32,573 nucleotides of DNA, taken from Akkermansia muciniphila (GTDB taxonomy: Bacteria; Verrucomicrobiota; Verrucomicrobiia; Limisphaerales; BJHT01). Both the position numbers and the translations under genes were made by a program. Location of the stretch: contig CAMAUZ010000085.1 of NCBI GenBank assembly GCA_945861535.1, forward strand, positions 1 to 32,573. The letters run 5' to 3'. Below are positions 2,574-26,224 of this stretch, one piece after another; the first letter of the stretch is position 1, and each line of letters starts with the position of its first letter. Under the pieces are notes generated by a model, which saw nothing but the letters and a program-made list of their open reading frames with translations, ran no database searches and had not been told where the DNA came from.

Positions 2574-5500
2574 ATGAAGACATCGCCCCATCGCTTCGGT
2601 CTCGCCACACTCCTCGGCGGCCTGCTCGCTTTCCTGCCCGTTCCCGTCACTGCCGCGACGACCGATCCCACCGGCCTGTACGAAAAACAAATCCGCCCGC
2701 TCTTCGAGCAGCATTGCTTCAAGTGCCACAGCCACGCTGCGGACAAAATCAAGGGCGGCCTCGTGCTCGATTCCCACGGCGCGATGCTCACCGGCGGCGA
2801 CACCGGGCCGGCCATCGTCCCGGGTCATCCGGAGAAGAGCCTGCTCGTGAAGGCGGTGAAAAATACCGCGGGTCTCGAGACCAACATGCCGCCCAAGGAG
2901 AAACTCTCCGCCGAACAAATCGCCGCGCTCGAGCAATGGATCAAACTCGGCGCGCCCGTGCCCGCCTCCGCCACGCCCTTCGCCGACGGCCCCGCCAAGC
3001 GCACCGGCAAACTCACCGCGGCCGACAAGCAATGGTGGGCCTTCCAGCCCGTCGTGAAGCCCGCCGTGCCGCAGCCGCGCAACGCCGCATGGGCGCGCAA
3101 CGACGTCGATCGCTTCGTCCTCGCCCGTCTCGAACGCGAAGGTCTCCCGCCCTCGCCCGAAGCCGACCGCGTCACCCTGATTCGCCGCGTTTACTTCGAT
3201 TTGATCGGCCTCCCACCCACGCCCGCCGATGTGGATGCCTTCCTCGCCGACAAATCTGCCGACGCCTACGACAAGCTCGTCGAGCGCCTTCTGCAAAGCC
3301 CGCGCTTCGGCGAGAAATGGGCGCGCCACTGGCTTGATCTCGTGCGCTACGCCGACTCGGACGGCTACAAGGCCGACGACTACCGCCCGCACGTCTGGCG
3401 CTACCGCGATTACGTCGTGAAGTCCTTCAATGACGACAAGCCCTACGACCGCTTCGTGCGCGAGCAGCTCGCCGGCGACGAGCTTTTCCCCGACAATCCC
3501 GAGGCCGTCACCGGCACGTTCTACCTGCGCCACGGCATCTACGAATACAACAACCGCGACGTCGCCGGCCAATGGCAGCGCATCCTCGAGGACATCACCG
3601 ACACCACCGCCGACGCCTTCCTCGGCATGGGCCTCCAGTGCGCGCGCTGTCACGACCACAAGTTCGACCCGATCCTCCGCAAGGATTACTACCGCCTCCA
3701 GGCCTTCTTCGCCCCGCTGCTCCCGCGCGAAGACCTCACGCTCGCGACCGCCCCCGAGCGCGCCGAGTATCAGGCCAAGCTCGCCAAATGGGCGGCCGCC
3801 ACCGCTGAGATTCGCGCCGAGATCGAGACCATCCTCGCCCCCGTCCGCGAGCGCACGATCAAGGGCGCGAGCGAAAAGTTCATCGATGAAATCCGCGACA
3901 TGATCACCAAGCCCGTCGCCGAACGCACCCCCTACGAACATCAGGTCGCCGAACTCGCCCTCCGCCAGGTCACCTACGACCTCGACCGCCTCGACGCCAA
4001 GCTCAAGGGCGACACCAAGGAACGCGTCCTCGCGCTCCGCAAAAAACTCACCGAGTTCGACAAGCTCAAGCCCGCCGCGCTGCCCGTCGCCTTCGCCGCC
4101 ACCGACGTCGGCCCGCTCGCGCCGCCGACCACGATTCCCAAGGCACGCAACGCCGAAAACATCCTGCCCGGCTACCTCACTGTGCTCGACGAACGCCCCG
4201 CCACCGTGCAGCCGCTCGCGCATTCCACCGGCCGCCGCAGCGAACTCGCCCGCTGGCTCACCGAACCCGAAAATCCCCTCAGCCGCCGCGTGATGGTGAA
4301 CCGCCTGTGGCAATGGCATTTCGGCCGCGGCCTCGCCGCCAACGCGAGCGACTTCGGCAAGCTCGGCGAGCTTCCCTCCCATCCCGAGTTGCTCGACTGG
4401 CTCTCCGCGCGCTTCCTGGAGGAAGGCTGGAGCCTCAAGGCCATCCACCGCCTCATCGTCACCAGCGCGACCTATCGCCAAAGCTCGCGCACCGATCTCC
4501 AGTCCGCGGCGCAATTGAAAGATCCCGAGAACCGCCTGCTCTGGCGCGGCAATGTCCGCCGCCTCGAGGCCGAGCAAATCCGCGACGCCCTCCTCACCGC
4601 CACCGGCGTGCTCAAGCTCGACGCCGGCGGTCCCGGCACCGACTCGCTCACGCACCGCCGCTCGATTTTCAGCAAGGCACTGCGCAACGCCCGCGACCCG
4701 CTCCTCGATGTTTTCGATCTCGCCGAGGCCTTCCAGAGCGTCCCCCAGCGCAACGTCACCACCACGCCCACACAGGCCCTGCTGCTCTTCAACAGCCAGA
4801 TGATGCTGCGCCACGCCAAGGCCTTCGCGCAGCGCCTCGAACAGGAATACCCGAGCAGCAACGAGGAAATGGTCGCCGCCGCGTACCGCCTTGCGTTTGG
4901 CCGTGCGCCGCGCCCGCCGGAACTCGCCGCTGCGCTGAAATATCTCGCCAGCCAGAAAACGCGCGTCGCCGCCAAATCCACTGCGCCCGCCGCGATCACC
5001 GCGTTCGCCGCCGAGAAGATGCCCTATCGCGACGGCGTCGCCGCCGTCGTCTCGCCCGAGATGAACGCCGAGAGCCTCACCATTCCCGACAGCGCGTCAT
5101 TGCCCACGGGCGATTTCACGTTCGAAGCGTGCATCCTCCTCCGCTCCGTCGATGACGGCGCGGCCGTCCGCACCATCGCGGCGAAATGGGACGGCAACAC
5201 CAAGAAGCCCGGCTGGGGATTCGGTGTCACCGGCAAAGGTTCGCGCCGCAAACCGCAGACGCTCGTGCTCCAGTTCGGCGGCACCAAGCAGGACGGCTCG
5301 TTCGGCGAGGAGGCCGTTTTCTCGGACCAGACCATCGCGCTGAACACGCCCTACTACGTGTCCGCCTCCGTGAAACTCGCCACCGCCACAACCGCCGGCG
5401 AAATCACCTTCCACGTCAAAAATCTCGCCAACGACGACGAGCCGCTGCAGGTCGCCAAGGTCGCGCACAAGCTCACCGGCGGTTTCAAAAACGCGCTCCC

Positions 5501-5819
5501 GCTGCACCTCGGCGGCCGCTCCGGCAAAGGCGGCGGCTTCGACGGCATGCTCGACGACGTGCGCATCTCCACCGGCGCGTTGACCAAGGAACAACTCCTC
5601 CTCACCGCCGAGCCGCTGACCGAACGCACCGTCGGCTTCTGGCAGTTCGAGTCCAAACCCAGCGCCTTCAAAGACGCCTCGCGTCACGGCAACGACATCC
5701 GCCCCAGCGCGAAATCCGCCACCGCCTCCGCCCACGGCGCGCCCGAGAGCCAGCTCGCCGCCCTCACCGATTTCTGCCACGTCCTGCTCAACGCGAATGA
5801 GTTTGTGTATGTGGATTGA
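2574..5819 (+). CDS. Secreted PSCyt1-DUF1549-DUF1553 protein with an inserted LamG domain
   Basis: A 1081-residue exported protein typical of Planctomycetes and Verrucomicrobia. In order: a signal peptide (residues 1-28, ending VPVTAA); a cytochrome-c-like PSCyt1 domain with haem motif CFKCH (48-52) and a downstream NMPP that may supply the axial methionine; DUF1549 (~155-390) with a second CxxCH (CARCHDHKFDPI); a helical linker; DUF1553 (~550-815, including RRVMVNRLWQWHFGRGL); and a concanavalin/LamG-like domain (~845-1045). The end, TDFCHVLLNANEFVYVD, is the normal DUF1553 terminus, so the LamG module sits inside DUF1553 rather than after it. The expected partner is the DUF1501 gene at 7708, now 1.9 kb away behind inserted DNA. 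These pairs are linked to glycan or sulfated polysaccharide use, but their exact activity is unproven. Confidence 0.93.
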   Translation: MKTSPHRFGLATLLGGLLAFLPVPVTAATTDPTGLYEKQIRPLFEQHCFKCHSHAADKIKGGLVLDSHGAMLTGGDTGPAIVPGHPEKSLLVKAVKNTAGLETNMPPKEKLSAEQIAALEQWIKLGAPVPASATPFADGPAKRTGKLTAADKQWWAFQPVVKPAVPQPRNAAWARNDVDRFVLARLEREGLPPSPEADRVTLIRRVYFDLIGLPPTPADVDAFLADKSADAYDKLVERLLQSPRFGEKWARHWLDLVRYADSDGYKADDYRPHVWRYRDYVVKSFNDDKPYDRFVREQLAGDELFPDNPEAVTGTFYLRHGIYEYNNRDVAGQWQRILEDITDTTADAFLGMGLQCARCHDHKFDPILRKDYYRLQAFFAPLLPREDLTLATAPERAEYQAKLAKWAAATAEIRAEIETILAPVRERTIKGASEKFIDEIRDMITKPVAERTPYEHQVAELALRQVTYDLDRLDAKLKGDTKERVLALRKKLTEFDKLKPAALPVAFAATDVGPLAPPTTIPKARNAENILPGYLTVLDERPATVQPLAHSTGRRSELARWLTEPENPLSRRVMVNRLWQWHFGRGLAANASDFGKLGELPSHPELLDWLSARFLEEGWSLKAIHRLIVTSATYRQSSRTDLQSAAQLKDPENRLLWRGNVRRLEAEQIRDALLTATGVLKLDAGGPGTDSLTHRRSIFSKALRNARDPLLDVFDLAEAFQSVPQRNVTTTPTQALLLFNSQMMLRHAKAFAQRLEQEYPSSNEEMVAAAYRLAFGRAPRPPELAAALKYLASQKTRVAAKSTAPAAITAFAAEKMPYRDGVAAVVSPEMNAESLTIPDSASLPTGDFTFEACILLRSVDDGAAVRTIAAKWDGNTKKPGWGFGVTGKGSRRKPQTLVLQFGGTKQDGSFGEEAVFSDQTIALNTPYYVSASVKLATATTAGEITFHVKNLANDDEPLQVAKVAHKLTGGFKNALPLHLGGRSGKGGGFDGMLDDVRISTGALTKEQLLLTAEPLTERTVGFWQFESKPSAFKDASRHGNDIRPSAKSATASAHGAPESQLAALTDFCHVLLNANEFVYVD

Positions 5820-5868
5820 AAGAAAAGGCTGCGGGTGGATTTCAACCAAGCATCCAGACAGGATTGCC

Positions 5869-5914
5869 CCGCTGGTTTCGCCGAATGCATTACGTTCACG
5901 AGCGGAATGTTAGG
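5869..5914 (+). other. Orphan right half of an integron attC-like site
   Basis: A GTTAGGC box (5908-5914) of the attC R' type is preceded by a possible inner stem (CCGCT at 5869-5873 pairing with AGCGG at 5901-5905). The matching left GCCTAAC box cannot be found between here and the stop of the preceding gene. It marks the left edge of the cassette-like region; the first small cassette gene starts 22 bases downstream. It could be a degraded attC or a recombination scar. Confidence 0.45.
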
Positions 5915-5935
5915 CCACTTCGCACGTCGCAGAGC

Positions 5936-6199
5936 ATGAGGACACTTTTGAGATACACAGTCGTTCTCGTCGCCGTTTATCTCGCGGCGTGGACGGCGTC
6001 GTATGCAGTCATGTTTGTCAGCCGAGGTGACGGTTTGGATTTCAGATACTTCTTCGAGTATCTCAGGTTGGCGTGGACGTTCAGCGGTGGAGAGTTGCCG
6101 TCGTTCATCTGGCTTTTCAGCATGATCGCGTTCTTGCCACTGGCCGGATTGTCGGTATTTCTGTTGAGGAGATATGAGAGACGCAAGAAAGTGGCCTAA
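5936..6199 (+). CDS. Small two-helix membrane protein in an integron-like cassette
   Basis: An 87-residue protein of unknown function. It has an N-terminal membrane helix (residues ~5-25, RYTVVLVAVYLAAWTASYA), a short soluble stretch and a second helix (~55-77, FIWLFSMIAFLPLAGLSVFLL), and ends in a basic tail (RRYERRKKVA). Its TAA stop lies inside the GCCTAAC box of the attC site that follows, the usual layout of an integron gene cassette. Base composition is lower in GC than the flanking DUF1553 gene. The ATG at 5936 is preferred because it follows the GTTAGGC box closely; a frame extension back to 5816 would read through that box. Confidence 0.65.
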   Translation: MRTLLRYTVVLVAVYLAAWTASYAVMFVSRGDGLDFRYFFEYLRLAWTFSGGELPSFIWLFSMIAFLPLAGLSVFLLRRYERRKKVA

Positions 6200-6286
6200 C
6201 CATGCGCTGCTGCGAACCCGTCGAGAGCGTCGCGGTTGCAATCGAACGCCCTCGTGTGCCGGGTCGCTGAGCTCGGGTCGTTAGGC
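6194..6286 (+). other. Integron attC recombination site (complete)
   Basis: A 93-base site runs from GCCTAAC (6194-6200, R'' box) to GTTAGGC (6280-6286, R' box), which are exact complements. Inside, GCGAACCCG pairs with CGGGTCGC apart from one unpaired A, matching the L''/L' boxes with an extrahelical base that orient attC recombination by an integron integrase. The left box contains the stop codon of the preceding small gene, and the next small gene begins 13 bases after the right box. No integrase gene is in the window. Confidence 0.82.
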
Positions 6287-6299
6287 CACAGCGAGTGTC

Positions 6300-6701
6300 A
6301 TGCTAATTTCTCGCGCCATACTTCTAACGAGCTTCTTCATCGTGCTTGCCGGATGCAGCGACATGGCTGAGAGCAACCACGCAACGATTGCAGCAGCCAA
6401 GGCAGACATTGAGCGAGGATGGATTCCGCCGATTCTTCCAGCTTCGACCGTGCAGATTCGCGAGTCACACGACCTCGACACCAACATCGGGCACGGCACA
6501 TTCGCTTTTGGAGCATCAGATTCAGAGAAGTTCCGCGCCACGCTTACAGTGTTGCCAGCGGGCAATGTGATTCGTCGAGTTAGCATTCCCCGCGACCAGA
6601 TGGAGCACGAGGGTTACACATTTTATCGCCACGACGACTTCTACCTTGCCGTAGATTGGAGTCGCCGACGCGGAGAGTTCTGGTTAATGTATTCACCATG
6701 A
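6300..6701 (+). CDS. Small predicted lipoprotein in an integron-like cassette
   Basis: A 133-residue hypothetical protein with a lipoprotein signal peptide: hydrophobic residues 6-17, then a lipobox LAGC with the acylated cysteine at 19. The mature part (~115 residues, e.g. AAKADIERGWIPPILPAST and ending EFWLMYSP) has no family that I recognise. It starts just after a complete attC site and ends a few bases before a GCCTAAC box (6706-6712), so it behaves as a promoterless gene cassette. Codon use is less GC-biased than in the neighbouring chromosomal genes. Confidence 0.7.
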   Translation: MLISRAILLTSFFIVLAGCSDMAESNHATIAAAKADIERGWIPPILPASTVQIRESHDLDTNIGHGTFAFGASDSEKFRATLTVLPAGNVIRRVSIPRDQMEHEGYTFYRHDDFYLAVDWSRRRGEFWLMYSP

Positions 6702-6705
6702 CTAG

Positions 6706-6725
6706 GCCTAACTTGGGTTATAGTC
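6706..6725 (+). other. Truncated attC-like site (left half)
   Basis: A GCCTAAC box follows the lipoprotein stop by four bases, as expected for a cassette boundary. No GTTRRRY right box with matching inner arms appears before the next ATG at 6736. The short TAACTTGGGTTA mirror next to it suggests a collapsed or deleted attC. Confidence 0.45.
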
Positions 6726-6735
6726 CGCACGACGC

Positions 6736-7020
6736 ATGAAGCGCAAATATACCACTCCGAGTCTGTGCTTCGTGGCCATCTATCTCGGCAGCTACTTGGG
6801 GCTATCATTGGGCGGCGCATACATGCCGGCTAACTACGGACTGAACGGCATCAAAGACTGGGCGTGGACCCCTCGCGGTTTTGCGGACGACTCCGGGCGG
6901 CTGCGCGTTGGGGTGGTCATTCCATTCTTTCCGCTCTACTGGATTGACTCGCGTTACTGGCACAGTGACTGGACAGGGTTGAGCGGTCCACAGAAGATGC
7001 CCGTGCGGCCTAGCAGGTGA
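6736..7020 (+). CDS. Small hypothetical membrane-associated protein in cassette array
   Basis: A 94-residue protein of unknown function with one N-terminal hydrophobic segment (residues ~8-29, PSLCFVAIYLGSYLGLSLGG). An aromatic-rich region follows (GLNGIKDWAWTPRGF, VVIPFFPLYWIDSRYWHSDW). It starts 23 bases after a GCCTAAC box, and its 3' end overlaps a GCCTAGC variant (7008-7014); a second GCCTAGC lies at 7038-7044. Position and composition suggest a third integron-type cassette with decayed ends. Confidence 0.6.
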   Translation: MKRKYTTPSLCFVAIYLGSYLGLSLGGAYMPANYGLNGIKDWAWTPRGFADDSGRLRVGVVIPFFPLYWIDSRYWHSDWTGLSGPQKMPVRPSR

Positions 7021-7044
7021 CCAACCCCCAATGCAGCGCCTAGC
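7008..7044 (+). other. Degenerate attC-like boxes
   Basis: Two GCCTAGC boxes (7008-7014 and 7038-7044) lie at the end of the third cassette-like gene. They differ by one base from the GCCTAAC boxes upstream. No complementary right-hand box is visible, so these may be remnants of one or two decayed sites, or coincidence. The following bases, to about 7130, hold nothing recognisable. Confidence 0.3.
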
Positions 7045-7130
7045 CCAAACACCCGTAGTGCCTGATCATGCCTTGAAGTGCCGCTATCGAAACCGCTCGT
7101 AAAATCACGGCGTCTCACACGCCACTGACC

Positions 7131-7238
7131 ACCTCCACTTTCTACAACCACCCCTCGCCATGAAACCCACCCGCGATCCCCGCTGCTTCCGTTTTGAACC
7201 TGCCACCTCGCGCCGCGACTACCTCCTCCGCGGCGGCG
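7131..7238 (+). repeat. Direct repeat, left copy (DUF1501 5' region)
   Basis: These 108 bases match 7679-7786 with 8 mismatches by hand count. The match covers about 30 bases upstream of the start codon and the first ~26 codons of the DUF1501 gene. The right copy belongs to the intact gene; this copy ends abruptly at GGCGGCG, where a different sequence (toxin remnant) begins. Confidence 0.85.
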
Positions 7239-7252
7239 AAGGCATCAACTGA
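7160..7252 (+). pseudogene. Truncated DUF1501 5' fragment
   Basis: This encodes a 30-residue remnant beginning MKPTRDPRCFRFEPATSRR and carrying the same twin-arginine motif (RRDYLL) as the intact DUF1501 protein downstream (RRDFLL). It leaves the homologous sequence after LLRGG and stops at a TGA three codons later. Differences from the intact gene are mostly at wobble positions. This suggests the fragment is old, or came from a related DUF1501 paralogue, rather than a very recent tandem copy. Confidence 0.8.
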
Positions 7253-7323
7253 AGGAACGACTGAAACGAGCGGAAGAACATTACCGGGAATGGATCGAAA
7301 AACCGAAAAAGGAAACGCCATGA
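7240..7323 (+). pseudogene. 5'-truncated RelE/HigB-like toxin remnant
   Basis: In a second frame, the 27 codons before the antitoxin encode RHQLKERLKRAEEHYREWI followed by EKPKKETP and a TGA that overlaps the antitoxin ATG by four bases (ATGA). A basic, helical C-terminal tail followed by an overlapping HTH antitoxin is the usual layout of HigB/Gp49-like toxin-antitoxin operons. All upstream toxin sequence is missing and replaced by the DUF1501 5' fragment. The toxin identity is inferred from context and tail character only. Confidence 0.5.
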
Positions 7324-7655
7324 AAACTCACGGAGCCATCCGTCGGGGCGGAAAGAACATTTTCGAGGATCTGCAACTGCCGGACGCGGAGGAACTCAAC
7401 GCCAAGGCCCAGAACGCCTACCGCATCTGCGGCATTCTGGAGGAACGCAAGCTGACCCAACAGGCGGCGGCGGAGCTGCTCGGCACCGACCAGCCCAGGG
7501 TGTCCGCGCTGCTCCACGGACGGCTCGAAGGGTTCTCCTCCGACCGCCTCTTCCGGTTCTTGAACGCGCTCGATCAGGACATCGAAATCGTCATCCGACG
7601 GGCAAAGAAGAAAAGCCGCCAAGCGCCGAGCATCCGCGTTCTGGTCCCAGCGTGA
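7320..7655 (+). CDS. HTH (XRE-type) antitoxin, toxin partner deleted
   Basis: A 111-residue helix-turn-helix protein of the HigA-like antitoxin type. After a short N-terminal arm (FEDLQLPDAEELNAKAQNA), the DNA-binding domain spans roughly residues 35-85: RKLTQQAAAELLGTDQPRVSALLHG is the helix-turn-helix, followed by FSSDRLFRFLNALDQDIEIVIRR. The ATG at 7320 overlaps the stop of the truncated toxin frame, the usual coupling for a toxin-first module. The reading frame is intact, so a free antitoxin or repressor could still be made. It lies between two copies of the DUF1501 5' region. Confidence 0.8.
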   Translation: MKTHGAIRRGGKNIFEDLQLPDAEELNAKAQNAYRICGILEERKLTQQAAAELLGTDQPRVSALLHGRLEGFSSDRLFRFLNALDQDIEIVIRRAKKKSRQAPSIRVLVPA

Positions 7656-7678
7656 TCCGCCCGCCGATACCCCTGAGA

Positions 7679-7786
7679 ACCTCCACTTCCCACAACCACC
7701 CCTCACCATGAAACCCACCCCCGATCCCCGCTGCTTTCGTTTTGAACCCGCCACCTCCCGCCGCGACTTCCTCCTCCGCGGCGGCG
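7679..7786 (+). repeat. Direct repeat, right copy (start of intact DUF1501 gene)
   Basis: This partner of 7131-7238 differs at 8 of 108 positions. Together the repeats bracket the toxin-antitoxin remnant. Confidence 0.85.
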
Positions 7787-9156
7787 CAGGCTTCGGCGCG
7801 CTCGCGCTGAGCCACCTGCTCGCCGGCGATTCCCTCGCCGCGCCCGCCAAGCCCTTCACCTCGCCCGTCGCACCCAAGCCGCCGCAGTTCGCGGGCAAGG
7901 CCAAGAGCGTCATCTTCCTCTTCATGGAAGGCGGCCCCAGCCACCTCGACACCTTCGATCCCAAGCCGAAATTGCAGGAACTCGCCGGCAAACCCCTCCC
8001 GCCCAGCTTCGGCAAAATCATCACCGCGATGGGCGAGTTCAACTCCCCCGTCCTCGCCTCCAAACGTCAGTGGGCGCAGCACGGCCAGAGCGGCCTGTGG
8101 ATTTCCGACTGGTGCCCGCACGTCGCCACCTGCGCCGACGACCTCGCCGTCATCCGCTCCTGCTGGGGCAACGGCATCGTCCACTCCAACGGCGTCTGCC
8201 AGATGAACACCGGCTCGATCCTCGCGGGCCGGCCGTCCCTCGGCGCGTGGGTCAACTACGGCCTCGGCACCGTCAACCAGAACCTCCCCGCCTTCGTCGT
8301 CATGCAGGACAACAACGGCACCGTCGTCAACGGCCCGCGCAACTGGGGCAGCGGCTTCATGCCCGCCGTCTATCAGGGCACCCGCATCACCCCCGGCAAC
8401 GAACCCATCGCCAACCTCAACACCCCCGAGGGCGTCAGCGAAATGCGCCAGCGCGGCAAGCTCGATTTCCTCTACGAAATCAACCGCGACCACGCCCGCA
8501 GCCGCCCGCAGCAGACCGAACTCGACGCCCGCATCGCCGCCTACGAACTCGCCTTCCGCATGCAGGCCGACGCCCCCGAAGCCGTCGATCTCACCCACGA
8601 AACCGACGCCACCAAAAAACTCTACGGCCTGGATGACCCGGCCACCGCCACCTTCGGCCGCATGTGCCTTCTCTCGCGCCGGCTCGTCGAGCGCGGCGTG
8701 CGCTTCGTCCAGCTCTACTCCGGTGCCGGCAGCAAATGGGACGCCCACTCGAACATCGAGAAAAACCACACCGAACGCTTCCGCGAAACCGACAAGGCCA
8801 TCGCCGGCCTTCTGAAAGATTTGAAAGCCCGCGGCCTTCTCGACAGCACCCTCGTCGTCTGGGGCGGCGAATTCGGCCGCACCCCGATGAGCGAAAAAGG
8901 CGACGGCCGCGACCACAACCCCACCGGCTTCACCATGTGGATGGCCGGCGGCGGAGTGCAAGGCGGCCAGGTCATCGGCACCACCGACGAGGTCGGCCTC
9001 CACGCCGTCGAAGAACGCCTCCACGTCCACGACCTCCACGCCACGATCCTGTGGCTACTCGGCATGGACAACCTCAAGGTCACCTACAACTACAAAGGCC
9101 GCCCCGAAAACCCGACCGTCAACGAAGGCGAGGCATACCAGAAAATCGCGGGGTAG
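7708..9156 (+). CDS. DUF1501 family protein, Tat-exported
   Basis: A 482-residue protein of the DUF1501 family, related to the alkaline phosphatase/sulfatase superfamily and very common in PVC bacteria beside PSCyt1/DUF1553 genes. The N-terminus carries a twin-arginine signal (SRRDFLLRGGAGFGALALS), implying folded export. Recognisable blocks are SVIFLFMEGGPSHLDTFDPK (~68-87), a GVRFVQLYSGAGSKWDAH region, and WGGEFGRTPMSEKGDGRDHN near residue 390, which resembles the metal-binding end of the superfamily fold. Its usual partner lies upstream at 2574. The ATG at 7708 follows a CCCCTCACC context that is shared with the truncated copy at 7160. Confidence 0.93.
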   Translation: MKPTPDPRCFRFEPATSRRDFLLRGGAGFGALALSHLLAGDSLAAPAKPFTSPVAPKPPQFAGKAKSVIFLFMEGGPSHLDTFDPKPKLQELAGKPLPPSFGKIITAMGEFNSPVLASKRQWAQHGQSGLWISDWCPHVATCADDLAVIRSCWGNGIVHSNGVCQMNTGSILAGRPSLGAWVNYGLGTVNQNLPAFVVMQDNNGTVVNGPRNWGSGFMPAVYQGTRITPGNEPIANLNTPEGVSEMRQRGKLDFLYEINRDHARSRPQQTELDARIAAYELAFRMQADAPEAVDLTHETDATKKLYGLDDPATATFGRMCLLSRRLVERGVRFVQLYSGAGSKWDAHSNIEKNHTERFRETDKAIAGLLKDLKARGLLDSTLVVWGGEFGRTPMSEKGDGRDHNPTGFTMWMAGGGVQGGQVIGTTDEVGLHAVEERLHVHDLHATILWLLGMDNLKVTYNYKGRPENPTVNEGEAYQKIAG

Positions 9157-20495: not shown

Positions 20496-20707
20496 TAGCC
20501 CCAGCGGGGCGGTGCTATTCCAACCCAGGGCATGGCCTTGGGTTTCGGCGTCGAGCGTCCGCGAAGCCCTGAAGGGGCGGTCCAACCGTGGGACTGTTAC
20601 CCCGCGATCGAACGCCCCTTCAGGGCTAAACGGTTCAATGGGTGGCGTAACCCAGGGCGTCGCTTCGCTCTGCCCTGGGCTGGTATGTCATCGCCCCGTT
20701 GGGGCTA
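20496..20707. repeat. Large nested inverted-repeat (cruciform-like) element
   Basis: The outer arms, 37 bases each (20496-20532 and 20671-20707), are imperfect complements (about 7 mismatches by hand), starting TAGCCCC and ending GGGGCTA. Inner arms AGCCCTGAAGGGGCG (20565-20579) and its exact complement (20613-20627) form a second stem. The right outer edge includes the TAG stop of the minus-strand toxin gene. It has the character of a dispersed structured repeat; no transposase lies within it. Confidence 0.7.
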
Positions 20708-20956
20708 GGTATCGGCGGGGTTGAGGGCGAGGACCTTGATGTGGCGGTCGGCGGAATCGATCCAGTAATGGATGGCGTAGCCGGCGAAGACGCTGATCTC
20801 CACGCGGCGGCCGATGCCGTCGCGCTCCTGGTAGTCGGAATGTCCTTCGGGAAACTGCCGTAACTTGGAAAGATGAGCTAGGAGACGGGCGCGGGATTGC
20901 TTGGGCATGGCGTCCAAGACACTGATCGCTTCCAGATCAAGGAGGCGGTAGTCCGT
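20705..20956 (-). CDS. ParE/RelE-like toxin, start codon apparently lost
   Basis: The minus strand encodes a small type II toxin-like protein. The body is TDYRLLDLEAISVLDAMPKQ, then LLAHLSKLRQFPEGHSDYQE, GRRVEISVFAGYAIHYWID and a final HIKVLALNPADT. This matches the ParE/RelE fold, with central strands 'RRVEISVF-GYAIHYW-D'. The expected initiator position reads ACG (20954-20956), nine bases after the antitoxin TAG, rather than ATG. A TTG at 20917 would remove the first strand, and an ATG at 20908 removes still more. The gene may be silenced, use a non-standard start or be translated from TTG. It ends inside the large structured repeat. Confidence 0.65.
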   Translation of the reverse strand, partial: TDYRLLDLEAISVLDAMPKQSRARLLAHLSKLRQFPEGHSDYQERDGIGRRVEISVFAGYAIHYWIDSADRHIKVLALNPADT

Positions 20957-20965
20957 GCGACCCGG

Positions 20966-21160
20966 CTAGTCCGAATATCGCTTCTGCAAGTCATCCAGTT
21001 CTACCCAGTGAGCCAGATTCTTGTCATCGATCTTGCGGGAAAGTTCGCTTTGGAACTGATCGTTCTGGTGGGTCTGTAGGGAAACCAGAAAGGCGATCAA
21101 TTCACGCCGCTCCGCTGATTGCAGATGCGCGGCCTGGTCTTTGAGTTGTGCCAATGACAT
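20966..21160 (-). CDS. Small antitoxin upstream of the ParE/RelE-like toxin
   Basis: A 64-residue, charged, helical protein: LAQLKDQAAHLQSAERRELI, AFLVSLQTHQ, then SRKIDDKNLAHWVELDDLQK. Size, position directly before the toxin frame and the C-terminal 'DDK...HWV-LD' neutralising-tail look fit a type II antitoxin of the addiction-module class. It is in the same frame as the toxin, with one TAG between them. The fold of the N-terminal DNA-binding part is not clear from sequence. The frame is intact. Confidence 0.65.
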   Translation of the reverse strand: MSLAQLKDQAAHLQSAERRELIAFLVSLQTHQNDQFQSELSRKIDDKNLAHWVELDDLQKRYSD

Positions 21161-21908: not shown

Positions 21909-22286
21909 TCACGTGAGAAGGGCATCCAGATCCGAGGCGCGGACGGAGGTTGTAGAAAATGTGCGGGGTTTCGGGCTTGCGGGTTTTCCGCGAGGGCGCG
22001 GAAAACGGCACCCGGGGGCGGGTGCGGTCCCCATGTTGCTTCGCTGTTCGGGAGTTAGGAGGCGGGGCGGCGGGGGGGCTTTTGGGGGTGGAAGCTTCCA
22101 GAGGTAGGCGGCAGGGGGGCCTTTGGTACGGGTTAAGCCGATTTCTAGCTCCAGGCGCTTGACCCAGGTGGGGCACGGGCGGGCATAGGGCAGGGCGAGG
22201 CGCGCTTGCAATTGCGGCCAGGTCAGGCCGGTGGGATTCCGGCGGAGTTCATCGCGAATTGCGTTTCGGAAGTCTTCGTAGCGCAT
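21909..22286 (-). CDS. Hypothetical protein with repeat-derived C-terminus
   Basis: A 125-residue frame from the ATG at 22286. The N-terminal ~65 residues (MRYEDFRNAIRDELRRNPTG, LTWPQLQARLALPYARPCPT, WVKRLELEIGLTRTKGPPAA, YLWKLP) have a helical, possibly winged-helix-like pattern. The rest is proline- and arginine-rich, and a section is encoded by the second copy of the 50-base direct repeat. The true gene may be shorter or have had its end replaced by repeat sequence. I recognise no family. An upstream in-frame ATG at 22355 would extend the protein, but it overlaps the large ATPase gene's 3' end. Confidence 0.5.
   Translation of the reverse strand: MRYEDFRNAIRDELRRNPTGLTWPQLQARLALPYARPCPTWVKRLELEIGLTRTKGPPAAYLWKLPPPKAPPPPRLLTPEQRSNMGTAPAPGCRFPRPRGKPASPKPRTFSTTSVRASDLDALLT
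21957..22006. repeat. 50-base direct repeat, copy 2
   Basis: This copy matches 21361-21410 with 5 mismatches. It lies within the proline-rich 3' part of the small gene at 21909-22286. Confidence 0.75.
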
Positions 22287-22351
22287 GGTCACTGGGGGAA
22301 GTTGACGGGTTAAGTTGAAGCAGAGATACCGAAACTCGCGGATTAACAACT

Positions 22352-25300
22352 TCAACAGTCGCCAACTTCAACCCATTCCACGCCTAGTTCTTTACACTTC
22401 TGTTTCAGACCATTCGGGATGCTTGGTGCAACAAGAATTCCACGAACATTCCCGCACGCTTGATTGAATTCCGCGGCAGTGACGTGCTTGTAGGCCACAG
22501 TTTGCCAGACGCCGTAGTCGCTTTCACCGGGAAATTCAGATTCGACTTCAATCGCGACGAACCTCTCGTGAACGTCTATTAGGATGAGGTCTGGTCTGAA
22601 ATGCGATTCAAGGGAAGGCTCATATCGGAACTGATGCATTCCGGCTTCGATGATCTCAGGATGTTTCCATAGCTTGTCTTTAAGATCGCGATGGGCGCGG
22701 TTTTCGCCGCCGCCTCCTCCCCCGCCACCGTGGCCCCCACCCCGTCCGCTTCCGGATGCTGGAAGACGGTGTCCGCCGCCCGGTTGGGTGGTTCCTAATG
22801 GAACTAAAGTTGAAGTTGAACTCTGAGTTGGACTCACGGCAATGGGGAGTGGGGCAAGCGGCAGAGTCGGCACAGGCGTGACTGGACGGGGAGGCGTTAG
22901 GGTCAAAACACGGGGTGTTAGAACTGGGGTTTTTGGTAGCGCGTTTGCGATCTCGACTTCTGTGACTCCCCGATTTAGCAGTTTGCGCTTGAGGCTGGCC
23001 TCGTCACAACCGAGCAAGTCGGCAAAAACTGCACCATCATCCAACTGGTCTGAACGACCAGCGGCGTGACATAATGCCAAGCCAACCTCTTCCCATAAGA
23101 TGTCTTTGGGTTTTCCTTGAGCCGTGAAATTCTCATCGGAATCGAGCCACAGGGATGGCGGCGTCAGCGCCGATTCCTGAAAGAATGCGGGGCACGATTG
23201 CGTTTCGAGTTCATGTTGATGAAGCAGAAACTTCACCTGAAGGCTCAACCCAACCCGGAAGCTTACTGTCCGCCATTTCTCGCTGACTCTCGTCGGGTCG
23301 TGATCTCTAGCACGCAGATACGCTTCCAGACAGGGGGAGCGCTCCCGAAGGCGCCACCGTATTTCGTCAGCCAAATCGGGCTGAGGTTCACCTTTTCGAA
23401 AAGAAGCGCTACCCTGTAAAGCTTTACTGAGCGATTGAATTCCAAAGATTTCACATGCCTTATCCTTATTTTCCCGTCTCCCCAATTCCACGGGGAATGT
23501 CCGGATACCCTTCAATCGTAAACGCGAGAGATCGGGGCGGTCCACAAACCAAACATTCTGGCCGCTCGATACGAGATGCCAGGCGTCCGTATTATCAGGG
23601 CGCTTTTCGACGCACCAAATTTTGCCGGGATAATTCGACGAACATCTGCGGAGCGCCTCCGCATACAGGCGCTTAGTCCTCGACCGATCGGATTCGTTCT
23701 CATTGCCATCAACTTTGGTTGCGGCAAGGAGCCAATGGTTCCAGTCCGATGGGGTTACGGAATTCCACGAAGACCGGATGCCCAAGCGTTCTTGAACGTG
23801 GGTGGGTATGTGACGGGCTGGCGCGAAGACCCAGTCCGAAAGAGTTTGATAGACCTCGGAAGCTTGTGAAAATAGGTCACGCGGTGGCGCAAGCTTCTCA
23901 GACCCATCAACGGGAATCCACGCTACATGTTGGAATAAATGCCAAAGATAAGAGGGTGAATCTGGCAGGCAGACATTATCATGGTCACATCGTTTCGAGC
24001 TAGATCGGGATATGCTTGCCTGTCGATAGGTCTCATAGTAGGCCCACTCTCCGCCGATAGATGTAAATGCCCCACTTAGCTCAAGAACCGACGCATCGCC
24101 GTCGAGCTGCCAGTCTTCCCGGAGGCGGGCGCACCGGACGTCGTTTTCGTTGTCCTTGTTCAGCGTAATGCAGTGGTCATTCCAGAGTCTTGGTGCATTT
24201 GGGAGTGGGAAGGGAAATCGGCCGCACTGCCACAAGATACGCTGTTTTGGCTCGCTTTCGTTCACCACGCATAGCACCTTAGGCGACCAACCAACGCCAA
24301 GCCATCGGGCGATCAGTTCGATCTGTTTGCGCCGAGTTTCATCCTCTTCCGGCGGCAGAAAAAACGAGCGATTGCGGTTTGATGTGTAGGCGCGTTCAAG
24401 GAAATCGTTCCCTGTCCATTCCTGGCCCGCATAGACGTCTTTGGCTGGCTTCCACTCCCCATTGTGACATGGGACATTGACTTGCTCTGCCAGTGCGTTG
24501 CGGTCCTTGCTTTTCCAGTCTATTACACCGTCGGACTCTTTGAGAAGCGGCGCGATGTTCGAGAGAAGATACGCCCACAGCTTTTCTGGAACGACTGCGG
24601 CAAGTTGCTGCTTTGCGAGTACTTGGGCGATGCTTTGCGGCTTGAACTCCTGAACCCCCAGCGCCTGTAAAAGACGTTTCACCTCTGGGTTTAGTTCGCA
24701 ATCGACCGCAAATGCCCGGGAAATGAATCCAACTTGGATGCCCTCGGGGGCGGGTGTGAGACGGCTGTCCTTCGGCGGAAAGAAAAGATAGCAATTGAAT
24801 GTTGCTTGAGGGCTGGCATCGCCTTCAATGGGAAGCAGTGGGAAGTTGCGCAACTCTTCGATGCTGAGTTTGGCCGTTGAGTTGAGCGCCATAACAACTT
24901 TTTCTCGCTTTTCATTATCCACTCCCGGCGTAAGAAAAAACGTTCCGGCAAGCCCACCTGGCCTGTGGTGCGTCAGCAATTCCTTAAACTTTTGCCAGTT
25001 GGGGACTCGGTTAATGGAATTCCAAGGGAAGTCTTTTGTGCCTGCATCCGGGCACAAACGCACGTCGCAGAGTCGAACTCCGCACTGGGGAAGCACCATT
25101 TCCAGCAAGGTGGCCTTTATTGCTCGCCAGACTTCATCTGCAAGTCCAGTCATGCCATCTAGTGGCGCTAACAAATCCAAAAAGATTCCGTCTTCATGTA
25201 CTGAAGTGAGGACAGATTTCACACAACAGGCCAACGATTGCACTATCTCAGGGCGGTTGGCCCCTGGGCGTACCCTCTTCCTGTTTTGCTCCAAGTCGAA

Positions 25301-26224
25301 TTCCCCGTGTAGGTACATTGGCACAGGGCAAATTTCCTCCGTCGGGAAGAATACGCGAATCTTGTCGTGGCGATACGGTGTGGGGTAGCCGTCCGAATCG
25401 ACGAGGACTGCAGCCGCGCTTGCCGTTTGTCCCGAAGGATCCCGGAATATACGCCACCGGCTTTTATGGGTGACCTTGTCTCCAATCTCCGCCGAAAGAT
25501 TGCGAACGTCACCGTCTCTCTCGCATCTCCAAAGAATCCGATCGCCTTCGGGAGGTTGCCAGTAAACTTCATCGATAGCGTGAAGAAAGAGCAAAATTGT
25601 AGGATCCCCAGTGACTGCTTCCCATTCTTTGGCGAAAAGGCCGTTGCGGATTATCGGCGCAGCCGATTCCAAAGTGATTATTGTGGCGTAAACTGCCTCG
25701 ACCTCTGGAATTGCGAGGTCTTGGTCATCCCAGAAAGGCAGCCGTAAAACTGGCACTTCGTCTGCAGACGGTAAATCAGCAGCCCGCAATGCTTTTTGAC
25801 TATCCTCACGACTGAAGCGGACCCGCAGGTTTCCCGATCGAATCCGCACTCGCTCGCCTACGTCGAGCACCGCTTTGAATCCAAGTCCTTTGTAGCCGAT
25901 TGGATCAGTGGCTGCGGCATCGTCAGCATTTTGCAAGAGTTCGAGCAGGAGCCGATTCGTGTAGTCCAACCCCATTTCTTTCTCAGCGCGGGCATGCTCA
26001 ATCACGTCGCCAGGGCAACGTTTGTAAGCATCAAGCCTATTCGCCCGGAGCGCATCCACCTTCCGTTTTGCCTCCAATGCGGAATCGAATGGTCCTGGAT
26101 TTCGCTCGGTTTCGTCGCTGCGGTGACTATTGCACACGGCTTCCAATCCACCGATGGAAAATGGTTTTCCCGTATTCGCCGCAATCAGTCCCTTGCTGCT
26201 CCAGTTAAAGTACGCATGTGACAT
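22352..26224 (-). CDS. Giant GHKL (sacsin-like) ATPase with C-terminal PD-(D/E)XK-type nuclease domain
   Basis: A 1290-residue protein in a visibly lower-GC gene than its neighbours, suggesting transfer. Bergerat-fold (HSP90/sacsin/MutL-type) ATP-binding motifs are present, but in the order II (IAANTGKPFS, residues 14-23), I (LLLELLQNADDA, 92-103), III (IGYKGLGFKAV, 109-119); normally I comes first. The middle ~1000 residues have no domain that I recognise. A Pro/Thr-rich and then Gly-rich linker (~1100-1173) leads to a C-terminal domain with RPDLILID...VAIEVE (Asp 1212, Glu 1226, Glu 1228) and WQTVAYKHV, resembling PD-(D/E)XK nucleases of the NucS/Mrr type with Glu in place of the usual Lys. 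Proteins of this general build occur in defence islands; a phage-defence role is inference. It lies 69 bases downstream of the giant ThuA gene. Confidence 0.8.
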   Translation of the reverse strand: MSHAYFNWSSKGLIAANTGKPFSIGGLEAVCNSHRSDETERNPGPFDSALEAKRKVDALRANRLDAYKRCPGDVIEHARAEKEMGLDYTNRLLLELLQNADDAAATDPIGYKGLGFKAVLDVGERVRIRSGNLRVRFSREDSQKALRAADLPSADEVPVLRLPFWDDQDLAIPEVEAVYATIITLESAAPIIRNGLFAKEWEAVTGDPTILLFLHAIDEVYWQPPEGDRILWRCERDGDVRNLSAEIGDKVTHKSRWRIFRDPSGQTASAAAVLVDSDGYPTPYRHDKIRVFFPTEEICPVPMYLHGEFDLEQNRKRVRPGANRPEIVQSLACCVKSVLTSVHEDGIFLDLLAPLDGMTGLADEVWRAIKATLLEMVLPQCGVRLCDVRLCPDAGTKDFPWNSINRVPNWQKFKELLTHHRPGGLAGTFFLTPGVDNEKREKVVMALNSTAKLSIEELRNFPLLPIEGDASPQATFNCYLFFPPKDSRLTPAPEGIQVGFISRAFAVDCELNPEVKRLLQALGVQEFKPQSIAQVLAKQQLAAVVPEKLWAYLLSNIAPLLKESDGVIDWKSKDRNALAEQVNVPCHNGEWKPAKDVYAGQEWTGNDFLERAYTSNRNRSFFLPPEEDETRRKQIELIARWLGVGWSPKVLCVVNESEPKQRILWQCGRFPFPLPNAPRLWNDHCITLNKDNENDVRCARLREDWQLDGDASVLELSGAFTSIGGEWAYYETYRQASISRSSSKRCDHDNVCLPDSPSYLWHLFQHVAWIPVDGSEKLAPPRDLFSQASEVYQTLSDWVFAPARHIPTHVQERLGIRSSWNSVTPSDWNHWLLAATKVDGNENESDRSRTKRLYAEALRRCSSNYPGKIWCVEKRPDNTDAWHLVSSGQNVWFVDRPDLSRLRLKGIRTFPVELGRRENKDKACEIFGIQSLSKALQGSASFRKGEPQPDLADEIRWRLRERSPCLEAYLRARDHDPTRVSEKWRTVSFRVGLSLQVKFLLHQHELETQSCPAFFQESALTPPSLWLDSDENFTAQGKPKDILWEEVGLALCHAAGRSDQLDDGAVFADLLGCDEASLKRKLLNRGVTEVEIANALPKTPVLTPRVLTLTPPRPVTPVPTLPLAPLPIAVSPTQSSTSTLVPLGTTQPGGGHRLPASGSGRGGGHGGGGGGGGENRAHRDLKDKLWKHPEIIEAGMHQFRYEPSLESHFRPDLILIDVHERFVAIEVESEFPGESDYGVWQTVAYKHVTAAEFNQACGNVRGILVAPSIPNGLKQKCKELGVEWVEVGDC

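Follow-up and report, generated by a model that had tools for sequence, protein, structure and literature searches.

Introduction

Gyrase, Hsp90, MutL, MORC proteins and histidine kinases are all built on the GHKL fold, and in known GHKL sites the N-box helix and the G2 motif both contact the phosphates. To our knowledge, the order of the GHKL motifs has been treated as fixed, and in GyrB, ParE, MutL, Hsp90 and MORC the N-box helix comes before the G1 hairpin. ATP binding drives conformational change and dimerisation in GHKL proteins (reviewed in PMC12733681). Tiamat, which is listed among anti-phage systems with an unknown mechanism (PMC10482375), is represented by TmtA (PADLOC PDLC03964 and its sister models), in which a GHKL-type N-terminal ATPase and a long middle region are followed by a C-terminal nuclease-like domain, usually DUF3883-like. 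Related ATPase domains are described by the sacsin SR regions and by NCBIfam model NF047352, the sacsin N-terminal ATP-binding-like domain.

The protein described here would belong with these systems, being of GHKL type by its motifs and predicted fold and TmtA-like by profile, but it departs from the canonical order of both families, and no published permuted GHKL or Bergerat domain was found in open-access full text.

Motif order and block architecture

The gene lies in the window (the whole stretch of DNA analysed, 32,573 nt), and its parts are as follows.

22352..26224, minus strand: whole gene, 1,290 aa, TmtA-like with permuted GHKL domain (open frame; PADLOC TmtA PDLC03964, E 1.3e-66)
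26105..26218, minus strand: block B, residues 3-40, beta hairpin, motif II (ANTGKPF, G1 box) and lid helix (profile match; model strands 2-8 and 12-17, helix 24-31)
26081..26104, minus strand: variable linker, residues 41-48, between the end of the lid and the helices of the ancestral N-terminus (poor conservation among permuted members)
25907..26080, minus strand: block A, residues 49-106, the helices of the ancestral N-terminus, then the N-box helix bearing motif I and E95/N99/D102 (profile match; helices 49-69, 72-87 and 89-104)
25217..25906, minus strand: block C, residues 107-336, motif III (G2, IGYKGLGFK) and the rest of the ATPase/transducer region (profile match)
22934..25216, minus strand: middle region, residues about 337-1097, common to TmtA-like proteins (further TmtA profile stretches)
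22706..22933, minus strand: Pro-, Ser- and Gly-rich linker, residues 1098-1173 (sequence composition)
22364..22693, minus strand: NucS-like domain at the C-terminus, residues 1178-1287, a putative nuclease of the PD-(D/E)XK type (NCBIfam NucS, Pfam NucS_C, weak PDB match)

Translation of 26224-22352 (minus strand) yields a single unbroken frame of 1,290 aa and bears out the motif order II-I-III, and the placement of the motifs, first claimed from the letters alone. The frame is open throughout, so that a frameshift is rejected, as the sequence-only reading had also held. Motif II (IAANTGKPFS, residues 14-23) is followed by motif I (LLLELLQNADDA, residues 92-103) and motif III (IGYKGLGFKAV, residues 109-119), with only five residues (AATDP) between the last two; motifs I and III are 15 residues apart in permuted proteins and 53-70 apart in normal-order relatives.

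The nature of the rearrangement was resolved with a profile built from 55 normal-order relatives, of which positions 59-94 match residues 4-39 of the window protein (block B), positions 3-57 match residues 52-106 (block A) and positions 98-328 match residues 108-336 (block C), with no junction leaving uncovered, or covering twice, more than three profile positions. Three relatives introduced below (L042, L043 and L044) give the same three-piece match, the domain being covered once and in the order B-A-C. The canonical place of block B is between blocks A and C, and moving it back in silico, for comparison only, restores an uninterrupted domain and lifts the score from 184 to 212 bits. Independently of the profile alignment, the curated NCBIfam sacsin model splits at the same two junctions: model positions 2-17 match residues 91-106 of the window protein, 17-57 match L043 residues 3-43 and 58-80 match L042 residues 107-129. 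All three stretches of NF047352 are found among the permuted members, but split and out of order, which is why these proteins score below its cut-off of 50 bits. Judged by sequence, the order is not a product of chance, since three separate normal-order profile blocks match (19, 42 and 120 bits) and a 48%-identical protein of another genome shares the order and can be aligned with the window protein from residue 1 onward.

Relatives sharing the permuted order

That 48%-identical protein, L042 (locus coordinates 4677-8528), came from a search of same-class genomes; it belongs to a groundwater Verrucomicrobia MAG, shows the order II-I-III of the window protein, and its identity with the latter runs on to residue 1107. 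An alignment scan with motif III across about 85,000 species genomes returned L042 as well and uncovered two further permuted loci, L043 (431-4576) and L044 (2010-5966); 75 of its 80 loci had the normal order, three were permuted and two could not be classed. A remnant of a permuted TmtA-like gene, L147 (G878:C265, about 118930-119310, minus strand), ends just past motif III and still retains the permuted order. Alignment with homologues, proposed as a check when the motif order was first noticed, thus places four loci of other Verrucomicrobiota genomes, three full-length proteins and one remnant, in the same order. With the window protein, five loci show G1, N-box, G2 in place of the canonical N-box, G1, G2, and are therefore to be regarded as a permuted variant rather than as canonical GHKL members.

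The full-length permuted relatives share 34-50% identity in the GHKL domain, and the full-length permuted genes are long open frames (1,284-1,382 aa). Carriers are scattered, with two among 384 genomes of the class and one among 388 of the phylum. A genome-contig scan with the whole window protein as query returned no relatives, L042-L044 having come from the motif III alignment; none were found among viral contigs and phage records, and plasmids gave distant relatives only, the best with 26% identity across 27% of the query. Weak matches in two genomes (G319 and G359) were rejected as relatives, being ordinary HtpG. Sequence search of the window's own genome gave a single match to the window protein, and a second close copy was accordingly rejected. 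The same genome carries a distant TmtA-like gene of normal motif order (L034; G000:C59, about 7528-8994, minus strand), with a frame of about 1,491 aa.

A tree restricted to blocks A and C places the four full-length permuted proteins on one side of a branch (97/92; 97% of bootstrap trees), and the two halves of this clade are deeply diverged. Between L043 and L044 dN/dS is 0.13-0.24 by region, which indicates purifying selection on the permuted proteins. The residues E95, N99 and D102 and the G1 and G2 glycines are invariant across the permuted set, as are N17-x-G19 and G110-x-x-G113-x-G115, both present in the window protein; the T/S between N17 and G19 varies within the set. The lid S-x-K, near-invariant in the relatives aligned, is S-D-E in the window protein (residues 36-38; 26111-26119, minus strand) and S-S-E in L044, the lysine being kept in L042 and L043. 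This lysine contacts the gamma phosphate in sacsin simulations (PMC9880540), and because the motif is replaced in the window protein and L044, hydrolysis by these two proteins may be altered.

Predicted structure

Structure prediction, also suggested at the outset, returned a confident domain of GHKL type: AlphaFold2 reached a pLDDT of 89.8 and a pTM of 0.88 with a 71-row alignment whose blocks B and C are covered by normal-order relatives and whose block A has only four rows. The lowest pLDDT within the first 100 model residues was found at 31-40. Prediction with the four permuted rows alone gave a pLDDT of 42, and mixed alignments A3, A4 and A6, which placed fragments wrongly, were left out of the prediction. 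The two Foldseek matches at E about 0.001 or better were GRP94 and HSP90. Foldseek TM-scores were modest (0.24-0.42), as is expected of a permuted query and equally of a distant one. Structural alignment matched GyrB, ParE, MORC, MutL, Hsp90, topo II, SMCHD1 and sacsin at Z 8.5-10.1, the sacsin SR1 fold over 145 residues at 3.1 Å.

Every structural alignment row shown begins at model residue 1 or 2, and the model start pairs with residues 54-56 of E. coli GyrB, 62 of M. tuberculosis GyrB, 39-40 of MutL and 126-133 of sacsin, positions which we take to lie just past the N-box helix. Such a start is as expected from sequential alignment if block A had been relocated to follow block B. The GHKL domain of the window protein is confidently predicted to adopt a Bergerat fold, and the N-box helix would probably lie at the nucleotide pocket, which the moved segment would close. 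The predicted fold and the N-box, G1 and G2 residues are shared with GyrB, ParE, MutL, Hsp90 and MORC, whereas the N-box helix of the window protein follows the G1 hairpin instead of preceding it.

Family identity, C-terminal domains and neighbourhood

Profile searches make the window protein a divergent member of the TmtA (Tiamat)-like ATPases, matching PDLC03964 (E 1.3e-66) in several stretches over the ATPase and middle region; the permuted relatives match the TmtA profile at E 1e-56 to 1e-61. The match is not colinear, profile positions about 63-108 being absent in place and supplied by the N-terminus. The overall plan of Tiamat is retained, but the permuted proteins read B-A-C instead of A-B-C, and in some of them the usual C-terminus is replaced by a NucS-like or HNH domain.

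The C-terminal domain of the window protein resembles NucS/EndoMS over about 105 aa (NCBIfam NucS, NF003270, E 4.1e-9, 35.9 bits against a cut-off of 216; Pfam NucS_C, E 0.0017, 18.7 bits against a cut-off of 24; a weak PDB sequence match). It differs from NucS/EndoMS in falling below the curated cut-offs, in its fusion to a GHKL protein, and in its putative active site, where RPD occurs at 1210 but IEVE stands where ExK is expected, the lysine being replaced by E; with membership defined by the curated cut-off and a catalytic ExK, it is not counted as a NucS member. L042 ends in an HNH domain (Pfam HNH_2, E 2.8e-6), and the C-termini of L043 and L044 are weakly DUF3883/NO VEIN-like. Permuted members thus exchange their C-terminal domains, as modular defence effectors do.

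Among the window neighbours tested, no defence genes were recognised and a single weak PADLOC match was obtained; L044 is surrounded by sulfatase-like genes. Two adjacent small ORFs lie 3' of the gene (20705-20908 and 20966-21160, minus strand), which look RelE/RelB-like by eye and have no Pfam match, so that a toxin-antitoxin pair is only suspected. A 148-aa ORF with a TTG start (21909-22355, minus strand) shares four bases with the end of the gene at its stop; it matched no family and might not be a genuine gene.

Proposed mechanism and alternative explanations

The best explanation, to which we assign a probability of roughly 75%, is an inherited segment-swapped GHKL domain, derived from one ancestral event, in a TmtA-like protein that would act as an ATP-gated single-gene defence nuclease. 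The ancestral order A-B-C would have become B-A-C, most simply once, in the ancestor of a small Verrucomicrobiota clade, and a tandem duplication followed by deletion, as suggested in the sequence-only reading, would fit the clean block exchange. The linker sequence TERNPGPF was considered as a decayed copy of the block C start (TERIGYKGLGF in L042), which, if real, would point to tandem duplication, and was dropped because the resemblance is too weak. The fold would still close, since the N-box helix would finish, and the G2 loop begin, at the phosphate end of the pocket, a gap that five residues can bridge, and the new variable linker would join the lid end to the old N-terminus. Closure of the lid upon ATP binding would then move the tethered N-terminal helices directly, leading to dimerisation or rearrangement and hence to gating of the C-terminal nuclease-like domain, with the protein acting as a single-gene anti-phage defence. 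The N-terminal ATPase, the varying nuclease-like tails and the scattered distribution suggest such an ATP-gated defence effector. The sequence and model data establish the swap, its conservation, the single clade and a confident GHKL-type prediction, whereas ATP turnover, gating, nuclease activity, defence and an origin through duplication and loss are inferred. The more specific proposition, a functional segment-swapped Bergerat fold with re-wired coupling of lid and N-terminus in a defence protein whose nuclease tails are exchangeable, is given slightly better than even odds.

These readings have to be weighed against explanations in which the order is an artefact, a lesion, or part of another function. 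The draft genome comprises 169 contigs, and a piece of about 110 bases could have been misplaced in a gene that really has the normal motif order. However, independent genomes carry the same order at four loci diverged to 34-50% identity, no direct repeats that could mislead an assembler were found around the junctions of the swapped segment, and the frame and conserved residues are intact; misassembly is therefore rejected as extremely improbable. The sequence-only reading had left two options, a permuted Bergerat fold or a broken ATPase, and the shared order, conserved motifs and confident GHKL-type model favour the former. An ATPase whose nucleotide site was destroyed by the rearrangement, leaving a decaying protein or a mere scaffold, would account for the loss of the lid lysine in the window protein and L044 and for the truncated remnant L147, but it is hard to reconcile with site residues invariant across a deep divergence, with the low dN/dS, with long open frames and with the predicted fold, and is considered improbable.

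Less easily dismissed, although still unlikely, is a permuted and functional protein outside defence, such as an ATPase with a chaperone- or repair-like housekeeping role and a tail that binds nucleic acids. The single weak PADLOC match among the window neighbours tested, the sulfatase-like surroundings of L044 and the unknown mechanism of Tiamat itself are in keeping with such a role. TmtA is nevertheless the best family match, and the patchy distribution, the variation among nuclease-like tails and the remnant are what solo defence genes typically show, which argues for the defence reading.

Implications

As a natural, inherited permutation, this small clade represents an evolutionary experiment on which connections the GHKL fold can do without, and it renders the coupling of lid and N-terminus directly testable. 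Furthermore, because a curated profile splits on these proteins and scores them below its cut-off, permuted members can escape annotation and surveys of defence systems. If the preferred reading of an inherited segment swap is true, the coupling of lid and N-terminus that drives GHKL dimerisation would have been re-wired in these proteins, with the N-box running straight into G2.
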